Shown here piece after piece: positions 25,829 through 56,461 of a DNA stretch of 64,000 nt. The stretch's first letter is position 1. Each line of letters starts with the position of its first letter. The notes beneath the pieces were generated by a model. The model was not told where the DNA came from, made no database searches, and saw only the letters and a program-made list of their open reading frames with translations. The position numbers and the translations under genes are program-made. The stretch comes from a virus, in the IMG/VR virus record IMGVR_UViG_3300020202_000069, positions 1 through 64,000 of that record. The stretch is one strand, 5' to 3'.

Positions 25829-27298
25829 CTACGCCCGGTTCTTGATCACGTAGTCGACGGTGCTGGTCTCGTTCCCGGTCGATGTGATCGTGAACGAGCC
25901 GTCCCCCTGGCCCGCCGTAAGGGTCCCGAACGAGAGATCGCCGGTCGTGCCGGCCGGAGCTCGACGGGTGAGGATCACCGTGGAGCGGGTGGCGTGCAGA
26001 ATCCACAGATTGGAGATCGCTGCCGTGCCGGGAGTGCCCGAGAGCGCCGCGGAGGTGCCCCAGTATTCGCGCGGGTAGAAGGCAGGCGACGTGGTGGCGA
26101 CGGTGATCGCTCCAGCCACGGTGGCGACCCAGACGGTACCCGCGAAGGTGGTGCCCTCGTTAACGAGAACCTCGGTGCCCGCCGCGAGCACCGCAGCAGC
26201 CGCCCAGTCCGATGCGCGAGTGAGCGGGGCATTGCCACCGCTTACGGCACCGACGGTGTAGATCCCATCTTGAGCGCCGGTCGTCTGGTGAGCCAGGAGG
26301 ATCCGATCGCCTTCCACGAACGTGAGACCGTCGTGGGTGGCGACTGCGAACGAGTTCAGATCGGCCACGTTCGACTGGACGACGCCGCGGACCGAGCGAA
26401 TCGCGCCGGCCTGCGCCGGGAGCGCGTGGACGTGATCGCTGCGCGCTAGCGAAGTGGCCGAGCCCTCTGCGTTCGCGTAGGCTACGGTGGTTGCTGCGGC
26501 CGTCGTGATGTCGTGCTTGTGGTCGGCACGAGCAAACGTAGTGGCCGCACCCGCAGAGGCAGCAGCCTTCGTCACGTTCGCCGGGGCCGCAGGTGCGGGC
26601 ACAGCGTGCACGTGGTCACTGCGTGCGAGCGAGGTGGCCGAGCCTTCCGCGGCGGCATCGCCGATCGCGATCGTCCCCGCCACTGCCGTGGAGATATCGT
26701 GCTTGTGATCGCTACGGGCCAGTGTCAGCGACGTGCCGACAGCAGCAGCAGCTTTCGTGACGTCGGCGGGCGCCGTGGTGGCAAGACCTCGATGCTGCAC
26801 GAACGTCAGTGTCGTGGTGTTCAGCGTGATCGCGCTGTCGACGTCGAGGATCCACTGCGTATCCGCATTGACGGAACCGCGCTCCACATAGACGATCATC
26901 TCCGGCGTCACCTCGGCGCTGGAGTCGGCGTCGGTGGCGCGCGTGAGAACCCACGGCGTGGACCCAGAGCCGAGGTTGGTCGCGGTATAGATACCGTTGT
27001 CCGCGCCGGTGCTCTGGTTCTTCACCAGGATGCGATCGCTAGCGACCACGGTGTAACCATCGATCGCGCCGAGGGCGCCATTGCCGGTCGCGGTCAGCAC
27101 GTTGCCAGACCGCGTAGCGTTGAGGTTCGCGGTCGTGGCGCAGACGACGGAGTTCTTGAAGTCCTGAGCGCCGATCGAGGCCTGGAGCGCCTCGATATCG
27201 ACAACCGCAGCATCGCGAACCGACTTCAGGGTGGCGGCGATCTCGGGCGGGTAGTTGCCGATACGCTGGGTATCGACGGCAGCAATCGTGGAAGCCAT
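25829..27298 (-). CDS. fibre-like protein with HxH repeats in the head module
   Basis: 489 residues. Two related beta domains (residues 45-170 and 305-410; both contain (S/G)DRIL...Q(S/T)TGA(D/Q)(N/D)GIYT) flank a central repeat region (about 175-300). That region has four copies of a unit ending ARSDH(K/V)H. HxH motifs in phage fibres commonly coordinate metal in a trimeric stalk. Yet the gene lies between portal and protease, not with tail fibres, so a capsid or neck fibre is likely. Confidence 0.75.
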   Translation of the reverse strand: MASTIAAVDTQRIGNYPPEIAATLKSVRDAAVVDIEALQASIGAQDFKNSVVCATTANLNATRSGNVLTATGNGALGAIDGYTVVASDRILVKNQSTGADNGIYTATNLGSGSTPWVLTRATDADSSAEVTPEMIVYVERGSVNADTQWILDVDSAITLNTTTLTFVQHRGLATTAPADVTKAAAAVGTSLTLARSDHKHDISTAVAGTIAIGDAAAEGSATSLARSDHVHAVPAPAAPANVTKAAASAGAATTFARADHKHDITTAAATTVAYANAEGSATSLARSDHVHALPAQAGAIRSVRGVVQSNVADLNSFAVATHDGLTFVEGDRILLAHQTTGAQDGIYTVGAVSGGNAPLTRASDWAAAAVLAAGTEVLVNEGTTFAGTVWVATVAGAITVATTSPAFYPREYWGTSAALSGTPGTAAISNLWILHATRSTVILTRRAPAGTTGDLSFGTLTAGQGDGSFTITSTGNETSTVDYVIKNRA

Positions 27299-27301
27299 TG
27301 C

Positions 27302-29062
27302 TTATTCCTCGTGGGAATCGGTGGTCGGTTGTATGGGGAGAGCCGGCGACCGAGGAGGCGCGCCGTTCACGGGGTCGGACTGGGGTGTCACGATCGGTGC
27401 CGACGAATCGGCAGAGGACTTGGCGGCGGACATCAAGAGTTCACGGAGGAACTGGGCAGCGCGCTCTCGCGAAAGGGCAGCCACCGCGTTCTTGACAGTC
27501 GGTGTGAGGGTGATCCCAAGATGGGCCGCAAGCGCTTGAATGCCTTCCGCCACAGAGTCAGCAGTCTCTTTGGGCGGGTCGAGCATCCCGATCTCAACCG
27601 GCTTGATGGGGGCCAGTCGGCGCGCGCCCTCCTCCGTGAGGTCAGCCAGTTTCTGGCCCAACTTGTCGGCGAGCCACTGAGCATCGGGGCCCGCGCCGAG
27701 GGCGGCCATCTTTGCTGCGCGCTCGAGGATCTGCTCCGGAGAGACCTGCTCGACGTGGATCTTGACCCCGGGGCAGAGTCGCTCTTCGCCGGGGCAATTC
27801 AGGTGGACGATCCACCAGACCAGATCCTCTTTGAGGGCTTGCGCCAGGATCGAGGCGTCGTAGCGAGCGTTCCGGAGATCGCCCTCCTGGTGCACCTGCC
27901 CAAGGGATCGAGCGCCCTTTTCTCCAGCGTCGGTAGTGAGAGTGCCACCGCGCACCGCTTTGGAGACCTGATCGTCACAGAGCTTGACCAGGGTGAGTTG
28001 GTTGATGCTGCTACGACCACCGCCGCTCCCGCCGACCGCGGGACCCTGGAGTTCGACTCGGACGCTGGAGGGGAGTGCGGCACTCGCGAGGCCGCCTATC
28101 CCGAGTCCTTTCAGCGCAGCGTCAAGTGCGGTCCTATCGCTTTCGCCAGCATCGCGATCCTTCCCATCGGGGCCCTTGGTGTTGTAGTAGCCGAGCGCCC
28201 ACGGCTTCGCGAAGCGCTCGACGTATTGGGTCGCGCCTCGCACAGCCATCTGCTTGATGGCCATGTAGTAGTCGACCTGGCGGCCAACCCCCTCACGGGT
28301 CGGATAGTCGCCTCGGTACGAGGGCCCGTCCCCGAAGATCAGGAACTTGCCCGGGTAGTCTTTGACTCGAAGACCGTAGAGACCCTCGGTTGGAAAGGCG
28401 ACGGGAGCGAAGGGCAGAACGGCTCCCTGATCCCAGACGTGGAGATCCCACGCATTCTGATCCGGGTAGTTGAGCCGCCGGCTGTGGATCATCTCCAGGC
28501 CGGAGATCCACCATCCATCGTTCCGGCGATCCCACTGGATCTCCGCCGCTGTCAGCCCGTAGTAGATGCCCCAGAGGAGCGCGAAGAGCGCCTGCGACAG
28601 CGCGGGGATGGCTTGGATGCGCTGCTCGACCAGCGAGCGGATCTCTTTGGCGCGATCCTTCTCAGCATCGTTCGCATCCTCGGGAAGCTCGGCTGCCGTA
28701 ATCTCGACAGAGCCTCCAGAGACCGCCAGGATCCGTTGGGCCAAGACCGCATAGGCGTGCGGGTCTTTCTCCAGCAGCTCATTGAGGACATCGACGTACT
28801 GCTGTCGATAGCCTTGCTGGCAGAGTCGCCGAACCGAGGCGAGGTACTGGAAGGTGAGATTCGACCCGAGAAGGATCGGCCAGCGATCGATCTGGGGCCA
28901 CGGCGCAACCGTGCGCTCGAGGTCATGAGTCCCATCGCGTTCCTTGCCGGGGATGCCAGAATTCGCGGGGAGGAAGCGACCGGCAAAGAGATGGCCGATT
29001 CGCTCCCCGGCCACCGAGTAGAGCTCGGCGAAGGTGGAACGTAGATTGTCGAAGAGGGCCAT
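27302..29062 (-). CDS. portal protein (DUF935, Mu gp29-like)
   Basis: 586 residues, somewhat longer than Mu gp29. The helix PHAYAVLAQRILAVSGGSVE, the AEIQWDRRNDGWWISGLEMI strand pair and the ERFAKPWALGYYNTKGPDGK segment match DUF935. A Gly-rich loop (VGGSGGGRSSINQL) lies near residue 348. The dodecameric portal is the DNA entry and exit port and the terminase docking site. Confidence 0.9.
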   Translation of the reverse strand: MALFDNLRSTFAELYSVAGERIGHLFAGRFLPANSGIPGKERDGTHDLERTVAPWPQIDRWPILLGSNLTFQYLASVRRLCQQGYRQQYVDVLNELLEKDPHAYAVLAQRILAVSGGSVEITAAELPEDANDAEKDRAKEIRSLVEQRIQAIPALSQALFALLWGIYYGLTAAEIQWDRRNDGWWISGLEMIHSRRLNYPDQNAWDLHVWDQGAVLPFAPVAFPTEGLYGLRVKDYPGKFLIFGDGPSYRGDYPTREGVGRQVDYYMAIKQMAVRGATQYVERFAKPWALGYYNTKGPDGKDRDAGESDRTALDAALKGLGIGGLASAALPSSVRVELQGPAVGGSGGGRSSINQLTLVKLCDDQVSKAVRGGTLTTDAGEKGARSLGQVHQEGDLRNARYDASILAQALKEDLVWWIVHLNCPGEERLCPGVKIHVEQVSPEQILERAAKMAALGAGPDAQWLADKLGQKLADLTEEGARRLAPIKPVEIGMLDPPKETADSVAEGIQALAAHLGITLTPTVKNAVAALSRERAAQFLRELLMSAAKSSADSSAPIVTPQSDPVNGAPPRSPALPIQPTTDSHEE

Positions 29063-30279: not shown

Positions 30280-31824
30280 TTCGTCCAGGTGGACGAGCAT
30301 AGGCGGGGGCGGAGGGGGTGCGGGAGGCGGGAGCTTGCGCACCTCGTCGTAGGCATCGCTGAGGGCATCTGCGATGTCATCGTGGCCGCCCTCGGGGAAC
30401 GCCTCGAGTTCGTCGATGAGTTCCTTGTTCCAAGGGCCGCGAACGAGGCAGACGCGGCCCTGGACTCCGCCTGTGCTCTGCGGAGCAGCTTGCGAGGAGA
30501 AGCCGCCGAACCGGGTCACCTTGTCGCCCGTGACCCGCGCTGTCACGACGGTGAATCCGTCGAGCTTCTGCACGTCATCCGCTGCATCGGCCTTCCCGGC
30601 CTGGCCCGGATCCTGGGCGAGACGGATCAGGACGTCCTTGCCATCAAGCTCGGCGGTGTTCCTGATCAGCGCCTTTACGACGCCGGGGGCCGCTTGTGTA
30701 CTCGCGAGATCGGCGATGTAGTACCGGCCCGTGCTGTGCGAGTAGCCGAGTTTAACGCCTCGCGTCCAGTCAGGATCCGGATTCTGTGGGGTGGGCTCGG
30801 TGGCGGCCTTGTCCCAGGCTCGAACGAAGCGCGTGTCGGATGGGCACGCGTCAACGATCGTGACCCACTCCAGGCGGAAGTAGCGACCCTTTCCGGGTTT
30901 TGCTAGCCAGTCGCCGCGCTCCAATTGCGCCCTCCGAACCGGGTCGAAGTCCCGGAGTTTCGTGCGGTAGGTGGGATCCTCAGCGAGGAGAGTGGGGTTG
31001 TCCTCGAGCCGCGCCGGGATGAAGGTGCGCGAGGTCGCGTCCGGATGGCCCGGTGGAACCACGTGCTCTTCCCCGTGCTCATCGCGCCAGATCCACAGCA
31101 CTTCGCCGGGCGCCGCGGGCGGGAGGGGCTTCCCGTCAGCACCTACACGAGGGGCCCGTCCGGGGATCGTGGCCTCGGGATTGAGCCACCACCGCCACCG
31201 CTTGAACACCCATTCGTGCCCGGTGCCGCCGGGGTTCGTGGTCGCTCGGACAAGGCGCGGAAGACCGGGCGAACCGGAGCGCAACCGCGACTTGATCTCG
31301 AGGTACTGGCGCTCAGTGAACTGCGTCAATTCCTCGAAGACGATGATCTGGTACTCCTGCCCTTGGTACTTCTCCCAGTCGTTCGCGTCCTCGCAGTGGT
31401 TGAAGTAGATGATGCCACCCGCGGGGAAGCGACACTCATAGGGCGGGGAGTTGATGAAGTGGGCGTCGGGGCAGGCGGGCGTGAAAGGTCGAACGCCCGT
31501 CTTCTGGCCGTACTTGTAGACCTTCTTGGCCTTGTCGAGCAGGTCTCGAAGGTCGTCGGTTCGTCGCCGAAGTACCAGCGACCGAAGATCGCTGTGACCT
31601 ACCCACGGAATGGGAAGCGCCACGGCGGACATGCTCTTCCCACCCCCAGCCGCACCGCCGAACAACACCTCATCGGCGGTCGATGTGTAGAAATCCTTCT
31701 GCGGACCCTCGTGGGGTTGCCAGATAGGAGGGCCAGCGGCCTGGGCTAGCCGCTCTCGGGCCTTGGCCAAGAAGTCGTCGGCAATGGACGGCCCGGACCT
31801 CGTGGCCCGCTTCGATGCCGCCAT
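30259..31824 (-). CDS. terL: terminase large subunit
   Basis: 521 residues. Walker A GGAAGGGKS (56-64), Walker B IIVFEEL (about 160), motif III ATTNPGG (about 200), and the nuclease domain with RAWDKAATEPT, then DPGQAGKAD and the final GGHDDIADALSDAY acidic cluster. ATP-driven packaging motor and headful or site nuclease. Three bases after the small terminase stop. Confidence 0.95.
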   Translation of the reverse strand: MAASKRATRSGPSIADDFLAKARERLAQAAGPPIWQPHEGPQKDFYTSTADEVLFGGAAGGGKSMSAVALPIPWVGHSDLRSLVLRRRTDDLRDLLDKAKKVYKYGQKTGVRPFTPACPDAHFINSPPYECRFPAGGIIYFNHCEDANDWEKYQGQEYQIIVFEELTQFTERQYLEIKSRLRSGSPGLPRLVRATTNPGGTGHEWVFKRWRWWLNPEATIPGRAPRVGADGKPLPPAAPGEVLWIWRDEHGEEHVVPPGHPDATSRTFIPARLEDNPTLLAEDPTYRTKLRDFDPVRRAQLERGDWLAKPGKGRYFRLEWVTIVDACPSDTRFVRAWDKAATEPTPQNPDPDWTRGVKLGYSHSTGRYYIADLASTQAAPGVVKALIRNTAELDGKDVLIRLAQDPGQAGKADAADDVQKLDGFTVVTARVTGDKVTRFGGFSSQAAPQSTGGVQGRVCLVRGPWNKELIDELEAFPEGGHDDIADALSDAYDEVRKLPPPAPPPPPPMLVHLDESPIGFG

Positions 31825-33743: not shown

Positions 33744-35137
33744 AGGTGGTTCTCCGAAGCGAAGGAGGGACGGAGGGGAGCGGGCGGGGAGGCTGTGACG
33801 TCACGAGAGTCCTTGGCCTTTCGAGGTTTCGGCGGGATGCGTGGGATGAGTCCCCAGGCTTCAAGGGCTTCGGCGGCAGCGGCTCGAGCTCGAGCCACCA
33901 GCGCGGGAGCCTCCCCCAGGAGCAGGCGGCGGGCTTCGGGGAAGACCCAGGCCCCACCGCGGCGGAGGTGTTGGGCGCGTCGGAGCGCCTCGGTAGGCTT
34001 CAGGCGGACCCAATCTCCAGCCTCAGAGACACCGACGTCGCAGAGTTCCAGGAGGTAGCGCTCCAGGGGAGTGAGGGGGCGGCCTCCCGTGCAGATGGCG
34101 GGGCGCTCCACGGTGCCATCGGCCTTGAGTCGAACAGGGATCCACTGGCCACCCACGCGAGCAGTTTCGGCACAGGCCGTCGCATCGAGGTGGCCCGTGG
34201 GTCGATCGCTGCGGGCGAAGGCTGGCGAGGGGGGCGTGGGGTGGACAGCGATACGCCCGAAGACGACGCCCGAAGGGAGTCGGTGCTTGTACGGGACGGA
34301 GGCGATGGCAGCCAGAGGACTGGAGCCTCCGCGCGATGTCGCCTCGGGATTGACCACACCCAGGGCTGGAGCGATGGCACCTCGATACGATCCATAGGGG
34401 GTGGCTCGTACCTGCCGAAAGCGGACGATCTCGCCGAAGTCGCTGTACGTGCTCCCCCGGCGCAGCACGGCGTTGACGAGAACCGCGACGAGATCTCCGA
34501 GTACTTCGCGGAGAAGCGTCCAGACGCGAGCGGCGAGGAAGCGATACCATCGTGGGCCCGCTTTCGGGAGCGGAGGGGATCGGCGTATCGCCTTGGCGAA
34601 GTCGTCGAGCGCGGCTTTCATCTCGTCGCATCGCCCCTCGTTGTCCGACCGCTCCGCATCGAGGTCTTCATCGCGACGGCCCAGATGTCCAGGCGCGGCC
34701 CACATCCCCAGGAAGACTCCGTTCCTGTCTCGCTCTTCGACCAGCGGGCCTGGGGCGCCCCACTCCTCCGCAAGGAGCCCCGACCGCGCGTACCGATCCC
34801 AGGACCCGACTCCACGAAGGCCCCACGCCTCCGGCGTCTCTCGGGCCGCCGCTTCGGTGTGGCAGGCCTCCCATGCTGCTGCGGGCTCGTGGTGAGCCGT
34901 GGGGACCGGTGGACAGTTCGCGGGACAGGTCAGGGCACCAGCCTCGAAGCGCGCACGGGCCCCGCAGTCCGGGCAGCGAACGACGAAGCCCGGGGAGACC
35001 ATAAGACCACAGAAGGCACAGGCGAAGACGCGCCGGCCCTCGCGGAGCGATCGTGGGATAACGACGGCGGCGCACTCGGGGCAGCGACCGGGGCAGCGAC
35101 CCACGTAAACATGATCGGGCGGCGAGATAGGCTGCAC
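33740..35137 (-). CDS. large zinc-ribbon protein of unknown function
   Basis: 465 residues from GTG 35137 with a strong GAGGAGG ribosome site. Residues 14-75 hold three or four Cys pairs (CPGRCPEC, CAFC, CPDC) in zinc-ribbon spacing. A helical middle (160-220) and a beta/helical C-terminus (from 315, ACAETARVGGQWIPVRLKAD) follow. No catalytic motif recognised. It might be a transcription or nucleic-acid-processing factor. Confidence 0.65.
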   Translation of the reverse strand: MQPISPPDHVYVGRCPGRCPECAAVVIPRSLREGRRVFACAFCGLMVSPGFVVRCPDCGARARFEAGALTCPANCPPVPTAHHEPAAAWEACHTEAAARETPEAWGLRGVGSWDRYARSGLLAEEWGAPGPLVEERDRNGVFLGMWAAPGHLGRRDEDLDAERSDNEGRCDEMKAALDDFAKAIRRSPPLPKAGPRWYRFLAARVWTLLREVLGDLVAVLVNAVLRRGSTYSDFGEIVRFRQVRATPYGSYRGAIAPALGVVNPEATSRGGSSPLAAIASVPYKHRLPSGVVFGRIAVHPTPPSPAFARSDRPTGHLDATACAETARVGGQWIPVRLKADGTVERPAICTGGRPLTPLERYLLELCDVGVSEAGDWVRLKPTEALRRAQHLRRGGAWVFPEARRLLLGEAPALVARARAAAAEALEAWGLIPRIPPKPRKAKDSRDVTASPPAPLRPSFASENHL

Positions 35138-35259
35138 AGCGACCTCCTCTTGCCGGATGGATCCCGGCAGGGTAGTATGGGGTCGCTGGCCCGGTGACCT
35201 GGGTGAGTGAATGCGCCCTCCATTGTTCGCGCGATGGGGGGCGCTGGTGTTTCTTGGGT

Positions 35260-42493: not shown

Positions 42494-43498
42494 TCATCGG
42501 CTCTTCTTCCCACGGAGCAAGAAGCCCTCTCCGTGGAGCTTCAGGATCACCCGCCCGATTGCTGGGTCGAAGCGCTCTTTCGCCGGCCGTATGACGATGC
42601 CCTCACGCACGTGATCCGCGAACGTGCTCTTCCCCTCAGCCAACTCGCGAAGCGATGTCTTCCAGGGGCCGCGGTAGAGGATCGGTACCACGGGGAGTTC
42701 GAGCCGCGCAGCGAGCGCGAGAAAGGTGTCGAAATCGACATACGCTCGGCGCTTGCAGTCGATCGCATCGAAGAGCCGGAATCCGCGACGATCGCTCGTG
42801 GCGTCGTACTTCACCCCGCGCTCGTCGCCATAGACCTCGCCATAGATACCGAACCCCTCGACGGATCGGAGCCGCTCCTCAAGCCCGAGTCGGCGGCCGA
42901 CCTCCCACCAGTGCTGACTCTGTTGGACGGTGCTCGCTGGATCTTTCCAGCACGTTCGGCTCCCGCAGTAGAGCCGACCGTAGCCGTACGTGTACCGAGC
43001 CGACTCCCCGTGGATCTTCTCGGTGATCACGACCTCTTCGCCCTCAGCAAGGACATGGGGATAGGCACGGAGCGCCGGGAGATCGGTATAGACCGGCATC
43101 AGCCCTGGGTCGCGCTCGTTCCCCTCGGTGGGCTCAGGCGCTTCGGCGCGCGTGATCCGGAGCTCGGAGGCGACGTCGCGTCCTACCTCCCACGATGGAT
43201 CGGCAGGCGTGAGGATGCCCATCGAGAAGACGCCGCGAAGCTTCTTCGCCTCGATCTCGATCCATGTCGGATTCGCGTCGGTGCCCTTCGGGAGCAGGAA
43301 CGACCAGCGTGGATCATCGGCCGGCACGACGGCCGTGACAGGCACGTAGACGGCCTTGTCGCCTTCCCGAAACTCGCCGGTGCGCAAGATGACGGGGTAG
43401 CCGCCCTCGCCCCCGATCCGGGTGATTGAGAGGTTGTCGGCGTTCGGGTGGCGCTCGATGGCGCCGATCTGGACAACGCGAACCTGGAACTCGCTCAT
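42494..43498 (-). CDS. RNA ligase, Rnl5 (DRB0094-like) family
   Basis: 334 residues. Residues 1-120 form an OB-like domain preceding the ligase. Motif I EKIHGES (Lys 161 as the adenylated residue), motif III GFGIYGEVYG (215-224), motif IV EGIVIRP (about 297) and motif V VILKLHGEGF (about 317) follow in the right order. The N-terminal OB domain before the ligase is the layout of Deinococcus DRB0094-type enzymes, which seal nicked RNA. In phages such enzymes may repair tRNA cut by host nucleases. Confidence 0.85.
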   Translation of the reverse strand: MSEFQVRVVQIGAIERHPNADNLSITRIGGEGGYPVILRTGEFREGDKAVYVPVTAVVPADDPRWSFLLPKGTDANPTWIEIEAKKLRGVFSMGILTPADPSWEVGRDVASELRITRAEAPEPTEGNERDPGLMPVYTDLPALRAYPHVLAEGEEVVITEKIHGESARYTYGYGRLYCGSRTCWKDPASTVQQSQHWWEVGRRLGLEERLRSVEGFGIYGEVYGDERGVKYDATSDRRGFRLFDAIDCKRRAYVDFDTFLALAARLELPVVPILYRGPWKTSLRELAEGKSTFADHVREGIVIRPAKERFDPAIGRVILKLHGEGFLLRGKKSR

Positions 43499-53001: not shown

Positions 53002-53757
53002 CTACGCCACCGAATCCAACTCTTCTTTCGACGCTTCCAGCACGGATCGCCAGTAGACCCGATCCTGTTTGCTTCCCCTCCGCAGAGCTTCGGCGACCAT
53101 CTCTAGCGCCGCGGGGCCACCTGCCTCGCACTGATAACAATGCACCGCATGCTGCACGCGGGCCCCCTTCACCGCTTTCCTGAGCAGGTCGGCCGCAATC
53201 CGATGCTCGCACGTCGAGAGGACCCCCTCGCCATTGACGATCTTGACCACGTTGCGCATGTAGGGATCGTGGTAGGCCTCGGTTTCCGCGTAGCCACTTG
53301 CCCGCTCGATCGCGAGCCAGAAGTCCTCATCGGGAGGTTCGGCCTTGCGCATTGCTGCGCCTCGCACGAATGGGCTCTTGCCACGCACGTCGATCAGGCT
53401 CACGTCGATCACGCCCCAGCCCTGCGTGCCCGGGTAGTCGTCGACCTCGCCGGGGCTCGATAGGATTCGGCTCCAGTCGTTGACCACGAGGTAGCTCTGC
53501 GAGCAGTAAACCCGGATCTTGGCACCCTTCGAGGGGTCCGCGGACTGTCGCCGAAAGTCGGCGCGCGAGTCCTTGATCTCGAATTCCGTCTGCGTATCGC
53601 CAGACTTGCGGCTCGAGGGCCACAACTGGATCGCCAAAGCGTCGCACCAGCCCTTGTTGGCGAAGCCGGTAGCATTCCCGACATGGCCCACGAACCTGTA
53701 CTGCGGCGGCCTGTACAGGGTCGCGAGCTTGCGACGGATCTCGGCTTCAGCGCTCAT
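53002..53757 (-). CDS. PD-(D/E)XK-like nuclease (MmcB-like)
   Basis: 251 residues from ATG 53757 (ATGA overlap with dnaB). Residues 38-70: CDALAIQLWP (Asp 39), FEIKDSRADFRRQS (Glu 60, Lys 62), the pattern of DNA-repair nucleases such as MmcB. A C-terminal helical region with Cys pairs (HCYQCEAGG) follows. Likely DNA end-processing or restriction-like nuclease in phage replication. Call by motif only. Confidence 0.65.
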   Translation of the reverse strand: MSAEAEIRRKLATLYRPPQYRFVGHVGNATGFANKGWCDALAIQLWPSSRKSGDTQTEFEIKDSRADFRRQSADPSKGAKIRVYCSQSYLVVNDWSRILSSPGEVDDYPGTQGWGVIDVSLIDVRGKSPFVRGAAMRKAEPPDEDFWLAIERASGYAETEAYHDPYMRNVVKIVNGEGVLSTCEHRIAADLLRKAVKGARVQHAVHCYQCEAGGPAALEMVAEALRRGSKQDRVYWRSVLEASKEELDSVA

Positions 53758-55292
53758 CGGGTTCCCTTCTTTCCTCGCCGCTCCTCGGCCGCGGTGCGGC
53801 GCTCCTCGATAATTCGGTCCCGATCCTCTCGGGACATGTTGTCGAAGCGGACAATATGCGGTGTAAACCACGCGAGGACGCGCCCGCATTCGCCTCCGCC
53901 GCGGCACTTGTCCACGAGCAGATCAGCCGCCTCCGGGTCAAACACGGCGCCCGGTTCGCGGAACGTATGCGAGCGCTCGAACGCGCTCTCATTCCAGATC
54001 AGGATCACCTTGTCCGCGTCGTGGACGATCGCCTTGCACTCGCGGAGGTCTTCCTTGCGCGGAAGGCGCCCCTTCTGGTGCGCGTCGTCGTTGAGCTGCG
54101 CAAGCACGATCACGGGCACACCGAGCTCTTTTGAGAGGCCCTTGAGTCCTCGTGAAGCCGCGGCAAGCTCCTGGTCGCGCCGCTCATGCGACTGCCCGGT
54201 GTCGTCCGCGCCCATGAGTTGGATGTAGTCCACGAGGATCACGCGGAGCCGTTGCCCGTGTTTGCGCGCTTGTGCGGCGACACGGCGCGACTTGGCGCGG
54301 ATCTGGAGCGGAGAGAGCGCGGGGCGATCGTCGAAGTACACACTGTCGATCGGAAGCCGCTGGGCCGTAGCGGTGATCTCGGCCCACTCCTCCCGAGATA
54401 TCTTCGACATCTGCGAGGACTTCGACCCATGGATCCTCGCCTCAGAGAACAGGGCTCGCGTTGCGAGCTCGTGCGCCGTCATCTCGTGCGAAAACACAAG
54501 CGCCGCTTGTTGATACTCCGTCGGCTCGTCCCGGTCGTTCAGGAGCATCACCTTGTGCGCCGCAGCATGGAGCACGATCTGCATTCCCATCGCGCTCTTG
54601 CCGATTCCAGAGTGCGCCGCGATGATCGCCATCTGGCCCGGCCTGATGCCGCGGATCAAGGCGTCGAGGTCCACAAGGCCGGTCTGGATCCCGGTGTCCG
54701 GCGATTCCGACGTTAGATCGCGAAACACCTCCGCGAGAACGATGCGCAGCGTCGGGGCCTCCGTGTCCTCAGCGGCGTCGTTTGATACTGACTGAATATC
54801 CGCCTCAACGCTGTCGAGGAACGTGGCGACGTCACCGACGCCGACGTACACCTGAGCCTGCGCGTACTGGCACTTCGCCGCGAGTTGCCGGAGGCGCCAT
54901 GTATCGCGCACAATGCGCGCGTGATCGAGTACGTTCGCGACCGCCGGGGTCGCGTCCACGATCTCGGCGAGGTAGCTTGATCCGCCGATCTGCTGGAGCC
55001 GCCCGTGTTCGCGGAGCCATGCTGCGACGGCAACGATATCGGTCGGCTTCCCTTCGGTGCTCAGGGCGTAGCAGGCGCGCGCGATCCACTGGTGGGCATC
55101 GGAGTAGAATCGATCGGCCGGGAGCAAGACGGCGACCTCGGGAACCGCCTCCGGCCACAGCATACACGCGGACAAGACGGCCTTCTCGGCGCCCATGTCA
55201 TGCGGTGGGATGCGCCCCTCAATCGAGGCGGGCGCATTCGGGCGGCGCTCGCCCTGCCCGCTGCGGCGGCGCTCGTCTCGGGGTGGATTCAT
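53754..55292 (-). CDS. dnaB: replicative DNA helicase DnaB
   Basis: 512 residues. N-terminal DnaB domain (residues 30-130), RecA-like core with Walker A AAHSGIGKS (225-233), Walker B VILVDYIQLM (about 365) and the C-terminal motif. Loader or initiator probably is the adjacent 55289-56383 gene. It unwinds DNA at the fork. Confidence 0.95.
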   Translation of the reverse strand: MNPPRDERRRSGQGERRPNAPASIEGRIPPHDMGAEKAVLSACMLWPEAVPEVAVLLPADRFYSDAHQWIARACYALSTEGKPTDIVAVAAWLREHGRLQQIGGSSYLAEIVDATPAVANVLDHARIVRDTWRLRQLAAKCQYAQAQVYVGVGDVATFLDSVEADIQSVSNDAAEDTEAPTLRIVLAEVFRDLTSESPDTGIQTGLVDLDALIRGIRPGQMAIIAAHSGIGKSAMGMQIVLHAAAHKVMLLNDRDEPTEYQQAALVFSHEMTAHELATRALFSEARIHGSKSSQMSKISREEWAEITATAQRLPIDSVYFDDRPALSPLQIRAKSRRVAAQARKHGQRLRVILVDYIQLMGADDTGQSHERRDQELAAASRGLKGLSKELGVPVIVLAQLNDDAHQKGRLPRKEDLRECKAIVHDADKVILIWNESAFERSHTFREPGAVFDPEAADLLVDKCRGGGECGRVLAWFTPHIVRFDNMSREDRDRIIEERRTAAEERRGKKGTR

Positions 55293-56383
55293 GCGGCGCC
55301 CCGGAGGAAAGAACGAGCCGGCATCCCGATCGCGCTGAACAGGAGCGCGGCACGCTCCGCTGGGCTCACAGCAGGCTCGGGCAGAGCCTCGGAGATGGGC
55401 TCCGCTCGCCGCGCCCCGATGCCCGCGAGAGCGGTACGGCCAAGCGCTGCGACCGTGGCCCGGTAGCGCTGCGACGCGGCCCCGGTGGCATGCATCTCCT
55501 CGTCCTCAGCCCGGACCTCATCAAGCTTGGCTTTCTGGTCGGGCGACATCCGGACGCGGCCCGTGCGATCGAACTGGTCGAGGAGCCCACGGCAGAAGTT
55601 CCGAGCGTGGCCCCCCGGGGGGCCGGCGGCCTTCCGACGGATCAGGTCGATGTCGGACTCGCGGCCCTCGTTCGGAGCCCGGATGCTGGCCAGCATGGGG
55701 CCCGGTTTGCCATCCGGTTTGCCATCCGGTTTGCTATTTTTGCCATCCATCGCGCGCGCGGTTTCAGGTAGCGCCTCGCCCTCTTCACCGTGATTTCTCT
55801 TTTCTTTTTCAATATTTGAAGAAGAGAGAGAAGGAAGATCATGGTTACCGGAGGCGTCTACGGTTTTGCCATCCGGTTTGCTATTTTTGCCATCGGTTTT
55901 GCCATCGGTTTTGCCATCCGGTTTGCTATTTTTGCCATCGTTTGCCATCCGGTTTTGCCATCGCCGGAGGGCTCCGGCGCGACCGGCGGCGGCACGCTTG
56001 GCGGACACATCGGGGCGGTTCGACCCGATTCGACGAGACGGACGCGACACCTCCACGAGGGGCGCCTCGGTGGACTCGGCGGCGGTCGTCGGTAGCGGGC
56101 TCGCGGTGGCACTCCGCGGGCCGTTGTAGACGTCGAAGTCGTGGATCTGAAACCCGCCCTCTACGAGGTGGGCGAGCCCGTGCTCGTGGCCAGCACGGGC
56201 CTCTACGAGGCGCTTCCAGGTCTTCGCCCCACCGAAGTGGGCGATCATGTCCTTGGGGATAAACCCCTGCGTTCCGCGCTCGTCGCTCCATGCACCAGCG
56301 CGCACGAACGCGCCGAAGGCGGCATCACCAGCAGCAGCGATCTTCTCATGAAACGCAGCACCTGTAGCGATCTGGAAAGCCAT
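55289..56383 (-). CDS. replication initiator / helicase loader candidate with embedded iterons
   Basis: 364 residues from ATG 56383 (ribosome site GGGAGG). N-terminal winged-helix-like domain (residues 1-100: AFGAFVRAGAWSDERGTQGF, IPKDMIAHFGGAKTWKRLVE). The middle (140-230) has repeats of GKNSKPDGK/GKTD encoded by TTTGCCATC iterons and a polar linker. The C-terminal domain (about 265-360) is helical. This layout (HTH, repetitive linker, helicase-binding end) next to dnaB resembles lambda O. Direct proof of binding is lacking. Confidence 0.75.
   Translation of the reverse strand: MAFQIATGAAFHEKIAAAGDAAFGAFVRAGAWSDERGTQGFIPKDMIAHFGGAKTWKRLVEARAGHEHGLAHLVEGGFQIHDFDVYNGPRSATASPLPTTAAESTEAPLVEVSRPSRRIGSNRPDVSAKRAAAGRAGALRRWQNRMANDGKNSKPDGKTDGKTDGKNSKPDGKTVDASGNHDLPSLSSSNIEKEKRNHGEEGEALPETARAMDGKNSKPDGKPDGKPGPMLASIRAPNEGRESDIDLIRRKAAGPPGGHARNFCRGLLDQFDRTGRVRMSPDQKAKLDEVRAEDEEMHATGAASQRYRATVAALGRTALAGIGARRAEPISEALPEPAVSPAERAALLFSAIGMPARSFLRGAA
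55706..55962. other. candidate replication origin: iterons and AT-rich segment
   Basis: Ten copies of TTTGCCATC: starts at 55706, 55718, 55739, 55865, 55886, 55898, 55910, 55931, 55941 and 55954. Spacings are 10-21 bases within each group. Three lie on one side and seven on the other of an AT-rich run (55791-55825) with TTCTCTTTTCTTTTTCAATA. Some copies are joined by the degenerate TTTGCTATT. Resembles oriLambda inside its initiator gene. Evidence is pattern and position only. Confidence 0.65.
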
Positions 56384-56461
56384 CACGTGCCCTCCCGGGA
56401 CTACCGATCGGCGCCCCGATTACTGTCCATTCACACCGATCCGCGGTACCTCGCCATGCGC

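Follow-up and report, generated by a model that had tools for sequence, protein, structure and literature searches.

The replication initiator gene of a contractile-tailed phage probably contains the phage's own theta-type origin. According to this reading, which is based on sequence comparison, 13 short sites would be bound by the initiator, an AT-rich stretch between them opened and DnaB brought in, with a short basic helix of the protein reading the sites. The same repeat occurs together with one short helix in initiators that are otherwise unrelated, which suggests a swappable module of helix and repeat for starting DNA copying. The phage is an IMG/VR virus record of 69,592 bases, of which 64,000 were analysed (hereafter the window). 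Its tail sheath, tape measure, baseplate hub and terminase are all recognised. The same phage encodes an RNA ligase-like gene (window 42494-43498; PHROG 968, 5.8e-29), and two ORFs of the window, 26513-29044 (843 aa) and 33746-35197 (483 aa), are without any PHROG match.

The initiator gene and its iterons

The initial annotation proposed an iteron origin embedded in an initiator gene with a winged-helix-like N-terminus and a C-terminal helical domain, next to dnaB. The description of the gene and its neighbour is borne out by PHROG, AlphaFold and Pfam (Table 1). The N-terminus of the protein (residues ~1-90) matches the PHROG 2447 'replication initiation protein' profile with E 1.4e-12, residues 4-158 match PHROG 3926, also a 'replication initiation protein', and the end of the gene overlaps full-length dnaB by 4 bases. 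Searches with the initiator protein gave no match in Pfam up to E 0.1 and none in NCBIfam up to E 0.01. The proposed origin itself is supported by the iterons and the AT-rich stretch, the initiator-type domains, the adjoining dnaB and the relatives, from which activity can be inferred. A GC-skew check showed no switch at 55.8 kb and gave it no support.

Ten exact copies of TTTGCCATC, all on the + strand, lie inside the initiator gene near dnaB, starting at 55706, 55718 and 55739 and at 55865, 55886, 55898, 55910, 55931, 55941 and 55954. As originally described, they are split 3 + 7, with 10-21 bases from start to start within the groups; from one group to the other the distance is 126 bases. 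Three additional copies of TTTGCTAT (55730, 55877 and 55922) had been missed and bring the total to 13 sites, in groups of 9 and 4, whose neighbours start 9-13 bases apart. On the coding strand, TTTGCCATC takes the form ATGGCAAA and TTTGCTAT the form ATAGCAAA, a variant also used by relatives. The core is the 8-bp ATRGCAAA, which is without dyad symmetry. A scan of both strands found a single other exact 8-mer core elsewhere in the window, and no second iteron array was found in the 69.6-kb record. The AT-rich run flanked by the repeat groups proved to be the only 40-bp stretch with at least 75% A+T among 63,960 window positions.

Table 1. Features of the initiator gene and its surroundings (window positions).
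Feature	Position	Strand	Basis and remarks
dnaB replicative helicase, 512 aa, next gene	53754..55292	-	Pfam DnaB_C 1.7e-56, DnaB 7.8e-26
Initiator gene, 365 aa	55289..56386	-	ORF; PHROG matches; start GTG at 56386 or ATG at 56383
C-terminal helical domain, residues 245-364	55295..55654	-	AlphaFold helices, moderate confidence; no family match
Iteron group 2: 3 TTTGCCATC + 1 TTTGCTAT (55730)	55706..55747	+	Exact-match search
AT-rich stretch, putative unwinding element	55793..55832		Sole 40-bp stretch with at least 75% A+T in window
Iteron group 1: 7 TTTGCCATC + 2 TTTGCTAT (55877, 55922)	55865..55962	+	Exact-match search; overlaps motif codons
Isolated motif helix, residues 125-151, AGRAGALRRW	55934..56014	-	AlphaFold pLDDT 85-90 over 131-150, disorder on both sides
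Winged-helix-like N-terminal domain, residues 1-95	56102..56386	-	AlphaFold pLDDT 85-98; helices, then strand, two helices, two strands

The motif helix and a proposed mechanism

The AlphaFold models describe the protein alone. The linker that follows the motif helix and is encoded by the iterons is disordered in them. AGRAGALRRW is the class A form of RSxAGKxGAxxRW, a motif common to DUF1376 and DUF6291 initiators. In a DUF6291 protein, the motif forms the end of a long helix, and the model confidence drops there. Sequence and fold searches of the PDB gave no significant relative, and no structural relative of the motif helix. Basic-region helices sit in the major groove. The A, G and S residues interleaved with basic ones in the motif recall such helices, which is only an analogy.

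These features allow a mechanism to be inferred in which the helix binds DNA, the duplex is melted, DnaB is loaded and the site acts as an origin. The initiator would coat the two clusters of ATRGCAAA sites, 13 in all, through its motif helix, and would open the AT-rich stretch between the clusters; the phage's own DnaB, encoded by the next gene, would be recruited to the opened strands, possibly with the C-terminal helical domain as the helicase contact. The iteron reader would be the motif helix, located just before the iteron-encoded linker, and it is most likely this basic helix, rather than the winged-helix N-terminus, that recognises the iteron. Helix and iteron would form a module across initiators with unrelated N-terminal domains, in which variants of the helix track variants of the iteron.

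Conservation of the repeats as DNA

The repeats had been described as forming a GKNSKPDGK linker in the protein. This is correct for eight of the exact copies, which are read as D-G-K, and does not hold for the copies at 55941 (M-A-N) and 55954 (W-Q-N), read in the other two frames. Since the exact copies occupy all three reading frames, it is the DNA and not the protein that is conserved. All eight in-frame DGK triplets are written GAT-GGC-AAA, each with an expectation of about 0.025 from the codon use of neighbouring genes, the eight not being independent if duplication produced them. GAT and AAA are rarely chosen together in the neighbouring genes. Of the 20 genes that have at least two copies in relatives belonging to this motif class, 17 use more than one frame. 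At five loci (L094, L115, L021, L040 and L057), some of which are related to one another, the protein ends just past the motif and the array lies after the stop codon.

Two further arrangements were observed. After the initiator stop of L115 and L021, ATGGCAAA arrays are located between inverted TTTGCCAT copies in a palindromic layout, followed by ACGTACGAACGTACGAAC repeats. The winged-helix region of L071/L228, L080 and L549 contains the peptide MANAMANAMAN, iteron copies having also invaded the coding sequence of the N-terminal domain.

Motif and array among viral relatives

Viral contigs were scanned for three spaced copies of TTTGCCAT, which gave at least 121 loci, the window included. Because a reversed control pattern also yields 99 loci, raw array counts mean little and only the content of the loci is informative. 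The peptide G[KR]x[GAS]xxx[RK]W occurs in the array-bearing ORF at 59 of 121 loci among the matches listed, compared with 1 of the 99 control loci and 7 of 1556 background ORFs; the sole motif-positive control locus, L169, itself contains ATGGCAAA copies. Proteins that combine motif and array have several types of N-terminus, including the winged helix (PHROG 2447), DUF1376 and DUF6291, and ATGGCAAA arrays accompany the peptide RSxAGKxGAxxRW in phage initiators whose N-terminal domains are unrelated.

In relatives without ATGGCAAA repeats, the RSxAGK peptide generally differs in form or is absent, often with a different repeat at the same place. Relatives that keep the protein and lose the repeats while the origin stays in position had been named in the initial annotation as evidence against an origin. 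The comparison is favourable to the origin in this respect: arrays persist when they are noncoding, and loss of ATGGCAAA generally goes with an altered or absent peptide. As a point against the proposed reading, the winged-helix class A proteins of L288 and L299 have no ATGGCAAA array. In the first relatives, L002-L008, the winged helix is kept without the motif and without a ATGGCAAA array. In its place, GGAATCC/GGATTCC repeats follow the stop codon in L005 and L008, and L002, L003 and L006 have mainly simple repeats.

Other repeats are also found in these genes. Winged-helix relatives without the RSxAGK motif (L254, L255, L262, L295 and others) have arrays of CCCGTACC, CACGTGAC, ACGCGTGA and CCGGAACG in or after the initiator gene. 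In very many relatives (L308-L467 and others), hexanucleotide tandem repeats, which encode dipeptides (SPSPSP, VNVNDN, SQSQ, TETETE, EPEPEP), lie directly downstream of the iterons. These tracts occupy the place expected of the unwinding element; in the window, a TC-rich tract together with the AT-rich stretch is found there instead.

Searches of genome contigs gave no relative with the window protein and no usable pattern with A1, and viral contigs searched with DnaB as bait gave nothing. YdaU of the Rac prophage (DUF1376) contains AGKASVQARR and has no clear array; the position of oriJ in this prophage was not found in the open-access literature.

Prediction of the iteron from the motif class

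The discovery set consisted of 240 loci chosen by N-terminal domain only, which avoids selection on repeats; 172 remained after removal of near-duplicates. Five classes were set after inspecting this set, but before the hold-outs: class A, GA..[RK]W with ATRGCAAA; class B, GG..SG..R or GGRPKKQ with AAGCAAA; class C, SA..[RK] with TCAACAA/CAACAAA; class D, GNLK[RK][WY] with TCGCAAA; and class E, other GGRP with AACCCA. Versions of the peptide outside class A pair with other iterons, namely GAAGCAAA (class B), TCAACAAA, TCGCAAA and AACCCA. The window has the class A module, G[KR]xGAxx[RK]W plus an AT[AG]GCAAA array spread over more than one frame, with GRAGALRRW followed by 13 sites in three frames.

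The predicted iteron ranks top in 63 of the 81 discovery proteins, compared with a mean of 23.6 and a maximum of 38 in 20,000 shuffles of iterons within N-terminal families. None of the five iterons is present in 17 proteins, and a different class is on top in one only, L256, which was scored C by the expression, yet has a motif of the GG type and iteron B. A class-free test on pairs across N-terminal families gave r=0.27, with a permutation maximum of 0.15 (2000 permutations). When iteron-encoded residues were removed (motif cut before RW, region from 12 codons on), r was 0.21, above all 2000 permutations (maximum 0.12).

Among the hold-outs, bacterial genomes with DUF6291 had the predicted iteron in 11 of 13 cases and none in 2. 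The viral DUF1376 'PPAFQFY' family gave 7 of 27 as predicted and 20 with none; its class C fails the strict rule and has TCAACC-like repeats instead. For gammaproteobacterial DUF1376, with at least 2 copies as the rule, 2 of 6 were as predicted and 4 had none. The genome-wide DUF6291 hold-out was left out because it comprised largely the same genomes again. Pooled, the predicted iteron is on top in 20 of 46 proteins, 26 have none clearly and 0 are wrong; by the strict rule it is absent from class C and from many 'PPAFQFY' members. As no non-predicted iteron is on top in any of the 46, the rule is specific wherever one of the five kinds of array exists, although not every member falls under it.

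Third positions of the class A motif codons agree between families at 33%, compared with 35% expected at random, so the pairing of motif and iteron is not a recent exchange of a DNA piece. The peptide is thus conserved as protein over saturated divergence and the iteron as DNA, which is the pattern expected of a binding pair.

Comparison with known systems

The region had been likened to the lambda O/oriLambda arrangement. The comparison holds for the mode of action, with origin-like repeats and an AT-rich unwinding region inside the initiator gene and helicase delivery encoded next door. It does not hold for membership of the lambda O family, which is ruled out by three differences. In lambda there are four iterons, each of 18 bp and with inverted-repeat symmetry, and an AT-rich region of 39 bp lies to one side (PMC6022878), whereas the window has 13 non-palindromic 8-bp sites flanking its AT-rich stretch; the window protein has no match to the phage replication protein O family in Pfam or NCBIfam; and the next gene encodes full-length DnaB itself, not the loader P.

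In Bacillus phage SPP1, the direct repeats of oriL lie within gene 38 and are bound by gp38; there is also an AT-rich unwinding element, and the phage encodes its own DnaB-type helicase, gp40 (PMC6316719). Compared by description, the window resembles this system in its repeats within the initiator gene, its AT-rich element and its phage-encoded DnaB-type helicase. SPP1 additionally has the loader gp39 and a second origin, oriR, whereas the window record contains no second array.

PHROG 2447 proteins of Arthrobacter, Mycobacterium and Gordonia phages have a winged-helix N-terminus homologous to that of the window protein. Arthrobacter phage 1191A (gene at 30668-31426) resembles the window in its class A motif and ATGGCAAA sites, with DnaB two genes on, whereas Mycobacterium phage Xula has kept the domain with neither the motif nor a ATGGCAAA array. 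Phage proteins with DUF1376 (PF07120) or DUF6291 (PF19808) have the motif classes and the ATGGCAAA iteron in common with the window protein, whereas their N-terminal domains are different and apparently unrelated.

Alternative explanations

The iterons of an in-gene origin could instead be read by the winged-helix N-terminal domain, with the motif helix only oligomerising or binding DNA non-specifically. In lambda O, the iteron binder is the N-terminal part, and the winged helix is the best-formed domain of the AlphaFold model and a common DNA-binding fold. However, a single iteron is found with three unrelated N-terminal families, several iterons are found within one such family, and the iteron tracks the motif class, which makes this reader unlikely. 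It is quite improbable that the repeats serve in autoregulation or bind a repressor or a host factor, with the origin elsewhere. Sequence alone cannot tell binding for repression from binding for initiation, and GC skew does not mark the site, but the unique AT-rich stretch lies between the site groups, dnaB adjoins, and lambda and SPP1 provide precedents. A single host factor is also argued against by the fact that the iteron tracks the protein motif in phages of different hosts (Arthrobacter phage 1191A, gammaproteobacterial genomes).

Array-like repeats are common in viral genes, as the 99 loci of the reversed control pattern demonstrate, and the repeats could in principle encode a low-complexity linker prone to slippage and have no function as DNA. 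This is made barely credible by the use of all three frames, by arrays after stop codons, by an 8-mer conserved amid variable spacers and by the cross-family association with the motif. An in-gene origin read by the motif helix is the preferred interpretation. The wider proposal could equally well prove right or wrong: the basic helix, built around RSxAGKx[G/S][A/G]xx[R/K], would be a new kind of short element for sequence-specific DNA binding that recognises 7-9 bp iterons through a readable code, moves as a unit between phage initiators whose N-terminal domains are not homologous, and defines the replication origin of many tailed phages.

Significance

A few model phages are known to have origins within genes. 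What is new here is that helix and iteron pair in a portable way in phage initiators that are otherwise unrelated, so that the question of recognition can be tested directly. The open-access literature (subscription papers were outside the scope) contained no paper linking DUF1376 or DUF6291 with phage replication initiation, and the pairing would provide a likely function for both groups of proteins. From sequence alone, the motif-iteron rule would locate candidate origins in many phages and prophages that are uncharacterised, and would offer a small protein-DNA recognition code with natural variants that is open to direct test.
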